The position numbers were made by a program, and so were the translations under genes. This document shows positions 6,327 to 35,424 of a stretch of 35,424 nt of DNA, piece after piece; within the stretch, counting starts at the first letter, position 1; each line of letters opens with the position of its first letter. Location of the stretch: assembly GCA_016177925.1 (NCBI GenBank), contig JACOUH010000040.1, positions 1 through 35,424 of the forward strand, in the 5' to 3' direction. The notes beneath the pieces are model-generated. The model was not told the origin of the DNA. It searched no databases and saw only the letters and a program-made list of their open reading frames with translations. Origin of the DNA: Planctomycetota bacterium. Its GTDB lineage: Bacteria; Planctomycetota; Planctomycetia; Gemmatales; Gemmataceae.

Positions 6327-8663
6327 TCACTTCTTGTTCGGCGTGACAACGACGTTATCGTAGAAGATCTCGGCACCCTGGCCGCCGGGGGGGCCGACGT
6401 GGGCGAACAGCCCGGGCGCCCCCTCGCGGTTGGGGACGGGGTCCTGGGCTTCGACCGTCCACTTCTCCGGCTCCTTCTCCCCGCGCGGCCAGACCTTGCC
6501 GCGGACGGTCGCCTTGTCGCCGTTGACCGACACGGTCAGCTTCAAGCGATACCAGGTGTCCGGCTTCCACTGGTAGGCGATGGACGAGTCGATGCGCGGC
6601 AGGGCCTCCCAGGAGATGAGCCGGAGCTGCTGGCTCGTCCCATACAGGGTCAGCGTGTAGCGGTTGGCAATGACGCCTGCGTTGGGCATGACCGTACCGA
6701 CCTTCTTGCCCAGGACGTCGGCCTCGATCGTGTAGTCCTTGGCGTCGGGCATGCCGAAGAACGCCTCGGCGCGGGCGAACAGCGGGTTGGTGCTGGTCGC
6801 CAGCTTCACCAGGACGTTGCTGCCGTTCTCCTTGCGGACGGCGAACTTGCCCTGCGTGTTGACCCACCCCGCCGGCGTCCGCCCGACGGGAACCTTGTCG
6901 AAGTCCTGCTTGTAAGGCAGTTTCGGTACTTGCCGCACGCGCGCCCGTCCCGTCAGGCCCTCCGCCCGGGCGAGGACGGTGCCGAACTGCCCCGGCACGT
7001 CCTTGGGCACAGTCAACTTGCCGCCGTTGGTCAGCTCGCCCTTCAGATCGGGCGGGTTGATCTTGGGCGGCGGGGGGAGGCCCTCCGTCTTCTCGGGCGG
7101 CAGCATCGGCCCAAGCGACCACCTGGGCTTGACCTCGCGCAGGAACCGGCCGTTCTTGTCGAACAGCCGCGCCTTGAACGTTGCCGATTCGCCCGGGGCG
7201 AGCGTCACCTCGGCAGGGACGACCTGGAGGTGGGCCGGCTCGCCTGTCTTCTCCTCGGCAGCCGGCTTCTCAGAGACACGGACCGCCGTGTGGTTGCCAT
7301 TGGGCTTGCCGATGCAGTAAGTGGCGTCGTTGGTGCAGAAGAAGACGCGGCCATTGGCGATCGCGGGGGCGCCGTCCAGCTCGGCGGCGTCGCCGGCCTG
7401 GGTCGTCAGGTCCTGGGCGTGCAGCAGCTTGCAGCCCCCGTCGCGGGGCTCGAGGATGCAGAGGTGGCCACCAGCGTCGGAGATGTAGATCTTGCCGTCG
7501 GCCATCACGGGCGAGCTGCGGTTGTTGCCGGCGCTGCCGCCCTGGCCGAACTTGAACCGCCACTTCCGCTTGCCCTGTGTGGTGAAGCAGAATAGGAAGG
7601 CGTCCTCATCGTTGAAGTACAGCCGGCCGTTGTGCAACAGCGGCGAGCCGAACTTGATCTTCGGCCCGTCGACCTTCCAGACGACCTTCGGCTCGCCGTT
7701 CTTGACCTCCGCGGCGTCCAGGCAGGCGACGCTGCCCTGGCGGCCGCCGGCCGGGTTGACCTCGCCGTGGGCGACGTAGACACGACTGCCGTCGACGACG
7801 GGGTCGGGGTTGATCGCCCCCTCGGCGAACAGGTAACTCCAGACCTTCTCGCCGGTGCGGACCTTGAAGGCGTGGATGCCGCCGTCGCCGCCGCCCGAGA
7901 TGAGCAGCCGCTTCCCCTTGATAGTCGCGATGACCGGGCTCGACTGATAGCTGGCCAAGACACGGTGCCCGGTGGACGACCACCAGACGACGTCACCGGT
8001 CTTCTTGTCGAAAGCGACGAAGCGGTTGCCGCCACGGGCGTACTCGCCCCAGGAGGCGTTATTGATGCCGAGGATGACGAGGTCCTCGTCGACGACCGGA
8101 CTGGTGAGGCGGCCGCCGTAGCCGCTGATGCGGCCGTACTCTTCCATGAGCGAGCGCTGCCAGAGGATCTTGCCGTCCTTGTCGAAGCAGGTGAGCAGGC
8201 CCTGCACGCCGTGGCAGTAGACGTTGCCGGTCTCGGGGTCGCCGGCGAGGTTGGTCCAGGTGACGCGGGCCTGGACGATGGCGGTCAGCCAGACGTTAAA
8301 GCGGTGTTCCCAGATCTTCCTTCCCGTCTTCTCGTCGAGGCAGACGACGCGCTCCTGCGAGGTCTTCTTTTCGCCGACGGGACCGTTGAGGTAGACGCGG
8401 CCGTTGAAGATCAGCGGCGTGGCGCGGCAGCCGTAGGGCGCCTCCCAGACAAGGTTGTCCTTGCCCGGCTGGCCGACGTCGAACTTGTCGGGCAGGTTCT
8501 TCGCCGGCGCGTAGCCGTTGTGCAGCGGCCCGCGCCAGCTAGGCCAGTCAGCGGCGCGCGCCGAAGAATTGGCCACAGATGAACACAGATGAACACAGAT
8601 CAAGAATAAGAGGGAACGGCGCACGGTACGCCTCCGGCACGGCGACGGGGAAAGAGGGTTCAT
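6327..8663 (-). CDS. Exported PQQ-like propeller with C-terminal concanavalin-like domain (propeller 3)
   Basis: The product is 778 residues. After a basic N-terminus (RRRTVRR) comes a short hydrophobic core, LLFLICVHLCSSVA, with cleavage likely near SARAA-DWPSWRGP. Residues about 40-440 form a PQQ-like propeller (VVCLDEKTGRKIWEHRF, GGGDGGIHAFKVRTGEKVW, GHLCILEPRDGG). Residues about 475-580 look like an Ig-like segment (PAEVTLAPGESATFKARLFD). Residues about 583-778 resemble a LamG/concanavalin-type sugar-binding fold (YKQDFDKVPVG at its start, GLFAHVGPPGGQGAEIFYDN at its end). AAGGA eight bases upstream supports ATG 8663. The signal core is encoded by one arm of a dispersed inverted repeat (8561-8600). 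Together these suggest an exported carbohydrate-binding protein, which is inference from fold resemblance. Confidence 0.9.
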   Translation of the reverse strand: MNPLSPSPCRRRTVRRSLLFLICVHLCSSVANSSARAADWPSWRGPLHNGYAPAKNLPDKFDVGQPGKDNLVWEAPYGCRATPLIFNGRVYLNGPVGEKKTSQERVVCLDEKTGRKIWEHRFNVWLTAIVQARVTWTNLAGDPETGNVYCHGVQGLLTCFDKDGKILWQRSLMEEYGRISGYGGRLTSPVVDEDLVILGINNASWGEYARGGNRFVAFDKKTGDVVWWSSTGHRVLASYQSSPVIATIKGKRLLISGGGDGGIHAFKVRTGEKVWSYLFAEGAINPDPVVDGSRVYVAHGEVNPAGGRQGSVACLDAAEVKNGEPKVVWKVDGPKIKFGSPLLHNGRLYFNDEDAFLFCFTTQGKRKWRFKFGQGGSAGNNRSSPVMADGKIYISDAGGHLCILEPRDGGCKLLHAQDLTTQAGDAAELDGAPAIANGRVFFCTNDATYCIGKPNGNHTAVRVSEKPAAEEKTGEPAHLQVVPAEVTLAPGESATFKARLFDKNGRFLREVKPRWSLGPMLPPEKTEGLPPPPKINPPDLKGELTNGGKLTVPKDVPGQFGTVLARAEGLTGRARVRQVPKLPYKQDFDKVPVGRTPAGWVNTQGKFAVRKENGSNVLVKLATSTNPLFARAEAFFGMPDAKDYTIEADVLGKKVGTVMPNAGVIANRYTLTLYGTSQQLRLISWEALPRIDSSIAYQWKPDTWYRLKLTVSVNGDKATVRGKVWPRGEKEPEKWTVEAQDPVPNREGAPGLFAHVGPPGGQGAEIFYDNVVVTPNKK

Positions 8664-8739
8664 GGATGTCTTCCTTTATTTCTTCAATCTGGTCTTTTCA
8701 TCTGTGTTTATCTGTGTTCATCTGTGGCTAATTCTTCGG
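8561..8739. repeat. Inverted repeat with 40-bp arms (38/40), spanning the ends of two genes
   Basis: Arm 8561-8600 and arm 8700-8739 are reverse complements with two mismatches across a 99-nt interval. Each arm contains a 10-nt tandem unit (CACAGATGAA in one arm, its complement in the other) ending in AATTCTTCGG. The left arm codes about residues 22-34 of the propeller 3 signal peptide. The right arm codes the last residues and stop codon of the PaaK-type ligase. Confidence 0.9.
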
Positions 8740-9983
8740 GCTTTCATTTCATAGCGGGGCAGGGCGCCGGGGGCAACGGCGCGGACCTCGGCGCGGAACA
8801 ACAGGTCGTCGCGGATGGCCCGCTCGACGCGTTCGGCGACCTCCTCGCCGCGGGCCGACGGCACCGGCTCGACCTCGACGCGCAGCACGGCCAGGGTGGA
8901 GGAGCGATCGACCTCGATGCGGTACTCGGCGACCTCCTCGACGCGGCGGATGACCGCCTCCAGCGTGCTGGGGTGGAGGTTGTTGCCGCGCAAGTGGATC
9001 ATATCATCGCCGCGGCCCAGGATGCCACCGTTGAGGCGCACGAAGGTGCGCCCGCAGGGGCAGGGGTCGGGGTCGACGCAGACCAGGTCGCCGGTGCGGT
9101 AGCGGATCAGCGGGCTGCCCACCCGTCCGAGCGTGGTCAACACCAACTCGCCCCTCGTGCCGGCAGGGATGGGTTCGAGCGTATCGGGGTCGATCACCTC
9201 GACGAGGTAATCGGCCTCGAGCAGGTGCAGGCCGGCGGGGTTCTGGACGCACTCGACGGCGGCGGGGCCCACCTCGGTCATGCCCGCGTGGTCGAAGACG
9301 CGGGCGCCCCAGCCGGCCTCGATGCGGCCGCGGACCGCCGGGATGCTGCCGCCCGGCTCGCCGGCGACGATCAGGGCGCGCACGGCGGAGGAGCACAGGT
9401 CGAGGCCCTCGCGGCCGGCGACCTCGGCGAGGTGCAGCGCGTAGGTCGGCGTACAGAGGACAACCGTCGCCGCGTGATCGAGCAGGAAGCGCTGCCGGGC
9501 GACGCTGCTCATGCCGCCGCCAGGCAGGCACCAGAGGCCCAACCGCGATGCAGCCTCGTAGGCCGTCCAGAAGCCCAGGAACGGGCCGAACGAGAACGGG
9601 AAGAACAGCCGGTCGCCCTTGCCGACGCCGACGATCTCGAAGATCTGCTCCCAGTTGTCCAGCGCCCACGACCAGCTCTGGGGCGTATCGAGCCAGCGCA
9701 ACGGCTGGCCCGAGGTGCCGGAAGTCTGGTGCAGGCGGCAGTAGCGGTCGAGTGGGTAGGTCAGGTCGGTGCCGTAGGGCGGATGTTCTTGCTGGTCAGC
9801 GAGCAGCTCGGCCTTGGTGGTGAACGGCAGGGAGCGCAGGTCGGTCACGGAGCGGATGCCGGCGAACTTGCGGGCGTAGAAGGGATTGTGTGGCAGGATC
9901 TCGGCGAGCAGCAGGCGCAGTCGTTCGGTCTGGAGATCCTCCAGCGCGGCGCGGCCCAGGAATGCCCGACTCGAAATGGCCAT
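8718..9983 (-). CDS. Phenylacetate-CoA ligase-like adenylate-forming enzyme (PaaK family)
   Basis: The 421-residue product has the expected order of motifs. The N-terminal helix ends in NPFYARKF, as in PaaK proteins. It then has the phosphate-binding loop QTSGTSGQPLRW (about residue 88), DHAGMTEVGP (about 231, the adenine-binding TE motif), YRTGDLV (about 295) and RGNNLHPSTLEAVI (about 330), which matches the RGxNxxPxxIE of the C-terminal lid. A CPCGRTF segment (CxCGR) is also typical. Such enzymes form an acyl-adenylate and then an acyl-CoA or carrier-bound acyl group; the substrate cannot be read from the sequence. The final residues (RISHR) and stop lie in the repeat arm 8700-8739, so the natural C-terminus may have been trimmed or extended there. 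The start lacks a strong ribosome site but fits the family. Confidence 0.9.
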   Translation of the reverse strand: MAISSRAFLGRAALEDLQTERLRLLLAEILPHNPFYARKFAGIRSVTDLRSLPFTTKAELLADQQEHPPYGTDLTYPLDRYCRLHQTSGTSGQPLRWLDTPQSWSWALDNWEQIFEIVGVGKGDRLFFPFSFGPFLGFWTAYEAASRLGLWCLPGGGMSSVARQRFLLDHAATVVLCTPTYALHLAEVAGREGLDLCSSAVRALIVAGEPGGSIPAVRGRIEAGWGARVFDHAGMTEVGPAAVECVQNPAGLHLLEADYLVEVIDPDTLEPIPAGTRGELVLTTLGRVGSPLIRYRTGDLVCVDPDPCPCGRTFVRLNGGILGRGDDMIHLRGNNLHPSTLEAVIRRVEEVAEYRIEVDRSSTLAVLRVEVEPVPSARGEEVAERVERAIRDDLLFRAEVRAVAPGALPRYEMKARRISHR

Positions 9984-13408: not shown

Positions 13409-14041
13409 ATGACCCCGACCTGCAACTCCAGCCGAACGAACCGCCTCCTGCAGCGCGTGCGCTCCCAAGACGGCGTCGCGCTGGACGAGCTGTTCGCGCT
13501 GCACAGCGAGCGGCTGCGGAAGATGGTGCGTCTGCGCCTTGACCGCCGGCTGCGCGGCCAGTTCACCTCCTCGGCGGTGCTGCAGCAGGTCTACACCGAT
13601 GCCTGCCAGCGCATCGGCGAGTACCTCGCCGATCCCAAGCAGCCAGTCTTCCTGTGGCTACGGCGGATCACCGGCGAGCGCATCCAGGGGCTGCACCGCC
13701 AGCACCTCGGGGCCCATGTCGTCGATGCCGGGGCCGAGCTGTCGCTGTACCGCGGCGCCCTGCCCGAGGTCAACTCGGGGTCGCTGGCCGCTCAGCTCAT
13801 TGGCGACAAGCCAGCCAACCAGGCCCTGGTGCGCGCCGACATGCTCCTCCGCCTTCAGGAAGCGCTCAACGGCCTGGATGCCTATGACCGCGAGATCCTG
13901 GCCATGTGCCACTTTGAAGAGATGCGCGATGAGGAAGTGGCCGCCGTCCTCGCCATCGACAAAATGACGGCCACGTTGCGCTACGTCCGCGCCCTGAAAC
14001 ATCTGAAAGAGATCCTGAAAAGCATCCCCGGCTTCTTCTAG
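13409..14041 (+). CDS. ECF-type RNA polymerase sigma factor (planctomycete kinase-associated group)
   Basis: The 210-residue product has a region-2-like N-terminal half (ALDELFALHSERLRKMVRLRLDRRLRG, then SAVLQQVYTDACQRIGEYL and FLWLRRITGERIQGLHRQHLGA). The C-terminal helix-turn-helix of region 4 reads LDAYDREILAMCHFEEMRDEEVAAVLAIDK then ATLRYVRALKHLKEIL. It directs RNA polymerase to a specific promoter set. The middle block SLYRGALPEVNSGSLAAQLIG is characteristic of the planctomycete group found beside Ser/Thr kinases. ATG 13409 is chosen on family length; no strong ribosome site is visible, and the same frame is open for another 67 codons upstream. The giant kinase starts 106 bases downstream, so the two probably work in one signalling unit. 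No anti-sigma factor is adjacent; the kinase may take that place. Confidence 0.9.
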   Translation: MTPTCNSSRTNRLLQRVRSQDGVALDELFALHSERLRKMVRLRLDRRLRGQFTSSAVLQQVYTDACQRIGEYLADPKQPVFLWLRRITGERIQGLHRQHLGAHVVDAGAELSLYRGALPEVNSGSLAAQLIGDKPANQALVRADMLLRLQEALNGLDAYDREILAMCHFEEMRDEEVAAVLAIDKMTATLRYVRALKHLKEILKSIPGFF

Positions 14042-14042
14042 G

Positions 14043-14113
14043 TGGTGAGGTGGTGGGGTGGTAAGGTGGTGGGGTCGTGGCCGCGGGCCGCCCACCACCC
14101 CACCACCTCACCA
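14043..14113. repeat. Inverted repeat with 20-bp perfect arms between sigma factor and kinase
   Basis: TGGTGAGGTGGTGGGGTGGT at 14043-14062 pairs perfectly with 14094-14113 over a 31-nt loop. It starts two bases after the sigma factor stop. It could act as a partial terminator separating sigma factor and kinase expression, but no T-run follows. Its arms are not self-palindromic, unlike most other repeats here. Confidence 0.9.
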
Positions 14114-14146
14114 TCGCACCACCCAACCCACTGAGGGGGGACGGCC

Positions 14147-17100
14147 ATGAACTCTTCCGCCTCCGATCCCAATCTGGTCGGGCAAGTCGTTGCCGAGTGG
14201 CGCGAGCGCCTGCGCCGCGGCGAGCGCTTCGAGCTGGACGAGTACACGGCCCGCTACCCGACGATCGCCGATGAGCTGCGCGACCTGTTCCCGGCGCTGG
14301 TCATGATCGAGGACCTCAAGGGGGAGGTCGGCGACCTGACCGGCAGCGTCGCCGCCGGCTCCGTTCAGCCCGGCAGCCAGGTGCTGGAGCGGCTCGGCGA
14401 CTACCGCATCCTGCGCGAAATCGGCCGCGGCGGCATGGGCATCGTCTACGAGGCCGAGCAGGAGTCGCTGGGTCGCCGCGTCGCCCTCAAGGTGCTGCCG
14501 GGCGGTGCCATGCTCGACGAGCACCAGCAGAAGCGGTTCCAGCGCGAGGCCAAGGCGGCGGCGCGCATGCACCACACCAATATCGTTCCCGTGTACGGCG
14601 TCGGCGAGCACGAGGGCATGCTCTACTACGTCATGCAGTTCATCCAGGGCCTCGGGCTGGACGAGGTCCTCACCGAACTGCGGCGGCTGCACGAGGCCCG
14701 GGGCGGCTCCCCTCCGACCACTCCAGCCCGGACCAAGGACGTGTCGGCGGTCGACGTTGCCCAGTCGCTCCTCACCGGCCAGTTCGCCGCGGCCGGGCCG
14801 GCCACCCTCACGAAGGCGCCGGACGGGGCCGGCTCGTCGAACGGCCAGGCGTCAGGGGAACTGCCCGCGATCGAAGTGGCCCCCGGCGGGCCGGCGCCGG
14901 CCACCTGCCCTGACGCCAGGGAACTGGCCAAGGGGATGGGTGTGCCGCCGGTCAACAGAGGGCAGGAATCAGGAGTCAGGAGTCAGGAATCAGCCGGAGG
15001 CCCTTCCACCCTGACCCCTGCGAAGGCGACCCGGACCTCCCCGACCGAGAAGTCGCTGTCGGAATCGGGCCGGCACTACTGGCTGAGCGTCGCCCGCATC
15101 GGCGTGCAGGTGGCCGAGGCCCTCGACTACGCCCACAGCCAGGGCGTCTTGCACCGCGACATCAAACCCTCCAACTTGCTGCTCGACACACAGGGCACTG
15201 TCTGGGTCACCGACTTCGGCCTGGCCAAGGCGGCCACCGACAGCGATGCCCTCACCCATACCGGCGACATCGTCGGCACGCTGCGCTACATGGCCCCCGA
15301 GCGCTTCAACGGCGTCTCCGACGCCAAGGGCGACATCTACAGCCTCGGGCTGACGCTGTACGAGCTGGTCTGCCAGCGGCCCGCCTACGAGGAAACCGAC
15401 CGTAACCAGCTCGTCAAGCGGGTCATGGACGGCGCCCCGGCCCAGCCGCGCAAGCTCAACGCGGCCATCCCCCGCGACCTGGAAACCATCATCGTCAAGG
15501 CGATCGACCACGAACCGACGCGCCGCTACGCCAGCGCCCGCGCCCTGGCCGACGACCTGAAACGCTTCCTCGACGACAAGCCCATCCAGGCCCGCCAGGC
15601 CGGCGCCCCCGAACGGCTGTGGCGCTGGTGCCGCCGCAACCCGGTCATTGCCAGCCTCAGCGCCGCCCTCCTGGTGCTGCTCGTCGCCCTGGCCGCCGGC
15701 TCCACCGTTGTCGCCCTGCGCTTCCAGAGCATGGCCAAGGAAGAGAACCGGCTCCGCGTCAAGGAGAGCCAACTCCGCGAATCCGCCGACGACGCCCGCA
15801 GCAGAGCCGACGGCGCCCGCGCCACGGCCGAGGCCAACCTCCAGGAAGCCCAGCGCCAGAAGAAGCTCGCCGAGGACCACCTCCAGGAAGCCGAGCGCCA
15901 GAAGAAGCTTGCCGAAACCAACTTTCGCCAGGCGCGCCGAGCCATCGACGACTCGCTGACGCGCATCAGCGAGAGCAAGTTGCTCAACGTCCCTGGCCTC
16001 CAGCCGCTCCGCAAGGAGCTGCTCGAGGCGGCCCTGCGCTACTACCAGGGCTTCCTCCAGCAGCACGCCGACAACCCCGCCGTGCAGAAGGACCTGGCGA
16101 CGGCGTACACCCTCGTCGCCAAGATCACCGCGGACGTCGCCTCCCGCGAGAAGGCGCTCCAAGCCTATGGGCAGGCCCTGGCGCTGCGCAAGCAACTGCT
16201 GCAGCGCAACCCCAACGACCTGGACTTGCAGGCGGACCTCGCCTTGCACCACCAGGCGATCGGCCGGCTGCAGCAGACCGACAATCCCAACGCCGCCCTC
16301 CAGTCGCTGCAGGAGGCAGCAGGCATCCTGCGCACCGTCATCCCGCGGAGTCAAAACAAACTGGAGCTGCTGCACGCCTTCGCCAGCGTCCACAACGACC
16401 TCGGCGTCGTCTACGTCCGCAAGAACGAACCGCTGGAAGCGATGAGCTACTACACGGCGGCCTTGAAGCTGCAGCGGCAACTCGTACACGAGAACCGCGA
16501 CCACCCGCGCAGCCCACAGCTGAAGTACGACCTGGCCAACCAGCTTACCCGCATGGGCAAACTGCAAGGGGACATCGGCCTGTCCACCGAGGCGCTGAAG
16601 TTGCACGGCGAGGCGCTGGCGCTGCTCCGCGCGATCGTCGCCGCCCCGGCGAGCGGGGCCAGTCATGGCCCCGGGAACAGTGACCGGGGCCATGACTGGC
16701 CCCGCTCGCCCGAGATCAACGACTGGCAGCGTGCCCTGGCCGCTAGCCACGAGGCGATCGGCGACGTGCAGGACCAGGAGGGCCAGCCGGCCGAGGCACT
16801 CAAGTCCTACCTGCAAGCGCTGCCGGTGCGGCTGCGGCTGGCGACGGCCAACCCGGCCGTCACGGATTACCAGGGGGACCTGGCGCACGCTCACTTCACC
16901 CTCGGCCAGCTGCAAGCGAAGAGGAACCAGACGGCCGCTGCGGCGTTGTCGTACCGCTCCGCCATCGACCGCCAGCGCCTCGTCGTCGCCGCCGTCCCCG
17001 AATCGCCAGAGCCGGTGCGGCTGCTGGCCCGCCAGTTCGCCCGGCTTGGCGCGGCGCAGCGGCAGCTGGGTCAGCCGGCCGAGGCGCTGCACTCCTACCG

Positions 17101-24430: not shown

Positions 24431-24520
24431 AAATGAGGAATGAGGAATGAGGAATGAGGAATGAAAGACAAGAAGAGTCTGACTTCTATTCATCATTCAG
24501 CATTCAGCATTCATCATTTC
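24431..24520. repeat. Heptad-unit imperfect inverted repeat reaching into the PAP2 gene
   Basis: Left side 24431-24465 has GAGGAAT units repeated four times. The right side 24488-24520 has matching units in the opposite sense (CATTCAG/CATTCAT type). It holds several ATG codons seven bases apart, each preceded by GAGGA, so it supplies both ribosome site and start codon for the PAP2 gene. The right half is translated as SIHHSAFSIHHF. Confidence 0.85.

Positions 24521-34110: not shown

Positions 34111-35424
<1,314 letters not shown>

Follow-up and report, generated by a model that had tools for sequence, protein, structure and literature searches.

A hairpin element, probably of a GxxExxY-carrying mobile family, provides the start and predicted signal peptide of a planctomycete β-propeller gene

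In a window of 35,424 nucleotides from a planctomycete of the family Gemmataceae (contig JACOUH010000040.1; the window is the whole stretch of DNA that we analyzed), a long inverted repeat lies across the junction between the genes of a PaaK-type CoA ligase and a β-propeller. In our interpretation it is a MITE-like copy, lacking a gene, of a mobile element; the gene-carrying form of this element encodes the GxxExxY protein, and the copy supplies a stop codon, a start codon and an export signal. We assign this reading a probability of roughly two in three. The element class behind the feature is the larger result; the interpretation in terms of export is supported by computational evidence.

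The element supplies the ligase with its stop codon and the propeller with a Shine-Dalgarno-like site, an ATG, an Arg-rich n-region and a hydrophobic core. In a repeat search, its two 43-nt arms (8561–8603 and 8697–8739) were 93% complementary and separated by a spacer of 93 nt. TRF identified tandem units with a 10-nt period in both, CACAGATGAA in 2.7 copies at 8574–8600 and TTCATCTGTG in 3.0 copies at 8697–8726. On the plus strand the left arm consists of CCGAAGAATTGGC and CACAGATGAA units, the right arm of TTCATCTGTG units and GCTAATTCTTCGG; both genes are read from the minus strand. The ligase (8718–9983), identified by NCBIfam and Pfam matches and by its synteny with the propeller in relatives, ends within the element, where the right arm encodes RRISHR and a TGA stop. 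The propeller (propeller 3; 6327–8663, 778 residues) is of the BamB/PQQ_2 type, as judged from its homologs and its match to Pfam PF13360 (E 8e-36), and starts within the element. Its ATG (8661–8663) lies in the interior (8604–8696), a part that differs in sequence between copies, as do the AAGGAAG motif at 8670–8676 on the minus strand, 6 nt 5′ of the ATG (upstream sequence AGAAATAAAGGAAGACATCC), and the codons for the n-region, MNPLSPSPCRRRTVRR. The left arm encodes LICVHLCSSVANSS, most of the core of the signal peptide. The initial annotation had described an inverted repeat with arms of about 40 bp and 10-nt units across the two genes, one arm giving the hydrophobic core of the propeller signal peptide and the other the C-terminus and stop of the ligase. 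All of this is borne out, with residues 21–34 as the arm-encoded part of the core, and can be refined in that the start codon, the AAGGAAG motif and residues 1–20 also come from the element.

The resulting N-terminus, MNPLSPSPCRRRTVRRSLLFLICVHLCSSVANSSARA (8553–8663, minus strand), is a predicted Sec signal peptide with cleavage inferred from an AxA motif and from homologs. It has the features of a Sec/SPI signal, namely an RRR..RR n-region, a segment SLLFLICVHLC with a hydropathy of 2.52, and the motif ARA/A, which lies just beyond the element edge. Here and below, signal peptides were scored by hydropathy, charge and AxA motif, a simple rule of our own distinct from SignalP, and slashes mark cleavage points as we read them from AxA-type motifs.

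In 26 relatives the gene immediately upstream of the propeller homolog is PaaK, with a stop-to-ATG distance of −4 to 168 nt. None of the 29 propeller homologs examined has an element of the CACAGAT family, to which the window copy belongs, at this junction, and all 29 carry ordinary export signals unlike that of the window (e.g. MRSMLSVIVLSVFSFFALA/ADWTHWRGP), two of which resemble lipoprotein signals. The initial annotation had named homologs with the same signal peptide and no repeat as the case that would speak against it; we looked for such homologs and found none among the 29, whose signals are unrelated. Since the gene pair is conserved and element-free in relatives, it is old, and since these have no element and other signal peptides, the element-encoded signal peptide is lineage-specific as far as sampled. 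An assembly error at the repeat is possible in a draft genome of 484 contigs and 83% completeness, though the gene order is the same as in relatives and a chance mis-join of contigs therefore unlikely.

The element is present in many copies. A 27-nt arm pattern, allowing up to three mismatches, matched the 7.35-Mb genome 28 times in forward and 30 times in reverse orientation, and the reversed control pattern did not match at all. With one exception the matches pair facing inward, giving about 29 copies, most of them flush with gene ends. The 28 complete copies that we aligned comprise 26 of 103–155 nt, one of 301 nt and one of 537 nt. Their conserved ends include about 13 nt past the tandem units (AAGAAGAATTGGC). 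The interiors are mostly unlike between copies, with a mean purine content that falls from 78% in the first 20 nt to 20% in the last 20. Further arm families in the same genome (CACGAAA and CACGGAA units) are of identical design. The 26 copies of 103–155 nt and the one of 301 nt, all with inverted arms, share with MITEs the short, non-coding, multicopy form and the terminal inverted repeats. We found no target-site duplications: in sets of 27 and 36 copies, the sequence beyond the arms had no direct repeats at a fixed distance. We therefore call the element MITE-like rather than a MITE.

The window holds other repeats as well. A hairpin of 8-nt units (GGTGGTGA..) at 14041–14128 lies just 5′ of a large kinase-like ORF of 2167 residues that starts at 14147 and itself contains a coding heptamer array (CAGGAAT, 4.4 copies, 14963–14993), apparently a half-element in a protein linker. 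Another hairpin family is represented at 2768–2861 by an inverted repeat with 33-nt arms, 97% complementary, and an exact 23-nt tandem duplication (GGGGGGCGTGAGCCCCCTGATGG).

The four whole elements that we folded form strong hairpins (−70 to −91 kcal/mol), and the arms of a copy covary: they differ by 1.04 mismatches, compared with 1.41 ± 0.12 when arms are shuffled between copies, and 7 of 5000 shuffles gave a value as low as 1.04. A long hairpin with covarying arms that sits flush between stop and start codons could also be a host regulatory element, such as a REP-like mRNA stabilizer or attenuator in operons, kept for its RNA structure and with mobility and coding capacity as by-products. 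Covariation, however, is also compatible with a structure needed for mobility. Moreover, the window copy is missing from the orthologous junction in relatives, copies nest within one another, one copy carries a nuclease gene, and one element, seen in a relative, is missing from a second genome whose flanks at the site are 97% identical. A purely regulatory hairpin is thus very improbable in our view.

The element in that relative contains GxxExxY and is present in genome G054 (848 nt) and absent from G050 (42 nt), at a single site whose edges are too diverged to give the exact insertion point. It was the only clean case in a 400-kb block of the two genomes, one other site differing by unrelated sequence; the copies listed outside this block could not be mapped onto each other, and the pairs G053/G057 and G037/G038 yielded no usable empty sites. 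In two further genomes, elements of different arm families lie apparently one inside another (L254, G015:C156; L282, G009:C186).

The gene-carrying form is represented by copy L028, which has the arms of the gene-less copies and holds a 136-residue ORF for a full-length GxxExxY protein (TIGR04256, E 2e-42, 144 bits compared with a cut-off of 35; PF13366, PDDEXK_3, E 4e-41). Residues G19, E22, Y25, D61 and K73 of the family are invariant and E71 is nearly so. A structure model with a pLDDT of 97 has a restriction-endonuclease-like PD-(D/E)XK fold, with SSO0001 as the nearest structure (Z 10.3) and the Holliday resolvase Hjc at Z 8.0. The modeled fold would suit an enzyme with branched or hairpin DNA as its substrate; sequence searches against solved structures gave no match at E 1.

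GxxExxY genes and inverted arms occur together well beyond this copy. At 26 of the 32 planctomycete loci, from this genome and its relatives, the arms score at least 30, compared with a maximum of 23 for displaced controls. In named genomes, which we scanned independently (Acidobacteriota, Bacteroidota, Chloroflexota, Cyanobacteria, Verrucomicrobiota, several proteobacterial groups, a methanosarcinal archaeon and others), arms flank 64 of 80 genes and 5 of 176 displaced controls. Overall, 93 of 111 loci have inverted-repeat evidence of some kind and 18 have no inverted arms. The arm sequences vary between loci while the plan recurs, as in AACCACGAATTAACACGAATGAACACGAAT or AACCGCCAAGACGCCAAGGTCGCCAAG. 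At one locus (L130, Verrucomicrobium sp. BvORR034) a GxxExxY element lies directly between the apparent pheS and pheT genes.

The distribution of arms among genomes follows the same pattern. Of the 31 genomes with GxxExxY, 23 contain matches to the arm pattern, as do 5 of the 28 without it (Fisher 2e-5, ignoring phylogeny; p 0.005 in a size-matched subset). The five exceptions have one to four matches each, and all 11 genomes with more than five matches possess the gene, so that gene-less copies are abundant only alongside it. The short copies contained no remnants of GxxExxY, and an origin by simple internal deletion is therefore unsupported.

A second protein family is found in elements of the same design. 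TIGR02436, the S23 or four-helix bundle protein, is known from 23S rRNA intervening sequences, which are likewise stem-loop elements around one small protein but differ from the window element in protein and unit length, and which lie inside rRNA genes. We found TIGR02436 genes (L284–L311) between inverted arms of 7-nt units at 23 of 28 loci and 0 of 78 controls. Unit length separates the two sets of arms: the best period is 8–10 in 54 of the 56 periodic GxxExxY loci (another 32 lack a clear one), and 21 of 22 TIGR02436 loci have a best period of 7 or 14. We rejected TIGR02436 as the partner protein in the present genome, where it has no match. The window contains two paired arrays of 7-nt units with the design seen around TIGR02436 genes in other genomes, AATGAGG/ATTCAGC at 24432–24464 and 24488–24518, and GAAGGAT/CATTCAT at 34111–34142 and 34159–34190. 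In each case an ORF starts in or beside the arrays (MKDKKSLTSIHHSAFSIHHF.. at 24461 and MKKRGFLPFIIHHSSFIISL.. at 34137).

We put the odds that GxxExxY moves the element at about even; it could also be cargo. As a passenger, such as a gene for defence or addiction, it would travel between arms recognized by an unrelated transposase. Its fold resembles that of many nucleases, which would suit such a role, and the presence of TIGR02436 between arms built to the same plan from 7-nt units means that more than one protein is associated with the design. Yet in the loci that we read, which span many phyla, the arms enclose no other evident gene than GxxExxY, unit length follows the protein (8–10 nt for GxxExxY, 7 nt for TIGR02436), and the number of gene-less copies tracks GxxExxY. 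On balance we find a passenger unlikely.

The window propeller is one of five exported-type genes in this genome that start within elements and have an arm-encoded h-region. We read every copy outward and found four of the CACAGAT family in which the best ATG of the downstream gene lies inside the element. Besides the propeller, these genes encode a PPC-domain protein (L012, N-terminus MRTHLGSRERRWTVALLAYLCSSVFICGYSSAA/TPSLG..), a PSCyt2/PSD1 protein (L018, MRASRHRSVPILFFHLCLSVFICGHSSLLSVARA/EPVSF..) and a protein whose homologs mostly have their own signal peptides (L021, MHILHRRGRASFLYPCLSVFICGYFVLPAWGQA/VPSK..). In all four cases checked, an AGGA-type sequence precedes the in-element ATG. 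The fifth gene, for a two-CxxCH cytochrome-like protein (L280, MGVFATRAFASALLVSALFFVSFVSFVVSSAGA/EEK..), starts in a CACGAAAGA element of a different arm family, and the upstream gene ends ..ERNHERHERHEKR in the opposite arm, which is the arrangement of the window with a different arm sequence. Judging by these N-termini, we infer that the elements provide for the export of all five proteins.

Insertion of a mobile, multicopy element could instead have damaged the propeller gene, with the signal peptide incidental and the gene now silent or expressed from a later start without export. Most elements indeed lie between intact genes and give no start, and beyond the element the propeller frame offers no start-type codon before a GTG at residue 153, so that the product would be truncated without the element's ATG. 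However, the propeller ORF is intact over its 778 residues, and the first 382 residues of the mature protein share 49–58% identity with the best homologs, which come from related genera. The cleavage motif has been retained just outside the element, and the five exported-type genes are arranged alike, with an AGGA-type site in the four checked. We therefore consider a damaged gene rather improbable.

The elements read as signal peptides far more often than expected. We define an h-region window as 11 residues with a mean hydropathy of at least 2.0 in a frame open to the element end. In 52 outward readings such a window is present in 58% of frames, compared with 4.3% for random segments and 2.7% for shuffles. 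At least one frame combines an ATG, a net positive n-region and an h-region in 37% of readings (1.4% for random segments, 1.0% for shuffles). In other genomes, hydrophobic frames make up 76%, compared with a control value of 3%, for the CACAGAG units of G015; the effect is weaker in G021 (24%), and CACGGATTT units in G027 are only slightly enriched (17% compared with 5%). As the property varies by arm family, we attribute the export-like reading to the arm sequence and the run from purines to pyrimidines, and not to selection for export in every copy. The proposal of the initial annotation, namely a repeat readable as an export signal that could supply secretion signals at gene starts, gains support from the five genes and the 37% compared with 1.4%. 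The signal-peptide property is probably incidental to what the element is, and the identity of the element goes beyond that annotation.

We picture a mobile element bounded by inverted arms, each made of some three tandem units of 9–10 nt. Its copies would settle at gene junctions, one of them having replaced the junction between ligase and propeller. Outward towards either end, the first half is purine-rich and the second pyrimidine-rich, so that translation in this direction gives a ribosome site of the AGGA type, followed by a start codon with basic residues, and then the hydrophobic residues of the arm. Such an element could terminate the upstream gene and both start and export the downstream one. 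GxxExxY would perhaps cut the cruciform or hairpin form of its DNA.

The precedent is a Yersinia repeat in one predicted signal peptide; new here are the recurrence, with five cases in a single genome, and the association with GxxExxY. Part of the signal peptide predicted for YPO1552 comes from enterobacterial RU-2 (Yersinia palindromic sequence), and homologs of YPO1552 have unrelated signals (Delihas 2007, PMC2759123). Like the window element it is a small mobile palindrome with a hydrophobic reading frame, but it is a different repeat, represented by one main case as opposed to five, and the passages on it that we consulted describe neither tandem-unit arms nor a linked nuclease (PMC2759123). 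Rickettsia palindromic elements, repeats of 100–150 bp, become parts of proteins as in-frame insertions within ORFs (PMC10969869, PMC2229807), whereas the present copies lie at gene junctions and give starts, stops and N-termini. The BrickBuilt MITE of Porphyromonas gingivalis, with about 19 copies, shares a tandem repeat and inverted ends, but its 23-nt tandem repeat forms the body and its copies are always intergenic (PMC4596501); here the inverted arms themselves are the tandem units. REP/REPIN sequences are RAYT-linked palindromes of 20–40 bp tagged GTAG or CGTC (PMC3733652), which the window-type arms, with 27–43 nt of tandem units, do not resemble. The family descriptions of TIGR04256 and PF13366 state no link to an element, and in the open-access literature, which leaves most subscription journals outside the search, we found nothing connecting GxxExxY (named in two papers), PF13366 (in one), the arm motifs or ICVHLW to mobile elements.

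Taken further, GxxExxY may define an undescribed class of bacterial and archaeal mobile elements, with arms of 9–10-nt units and gene-less hairpins, and TIGR02436 a sister class with 7-nt units; the gene-less copies would then act as portable starts with a signal peptide and rewire export repeatedly. We advance this tentatively, at somewhat less than an even chance. Changes in signal peptides are usually ascribed to point mutations or gene fusions. In this genome, ready-made ones appear to have been swapped in by a mobile hairpin on several occasions. Should GxxExxY be the mobility protein, a widespread family known only by the motif in its name would gain a function, and the CACGAAGG-, CGCAGAGG- and CACAGATGAA-type repeats found across many phyla would be accounted for.
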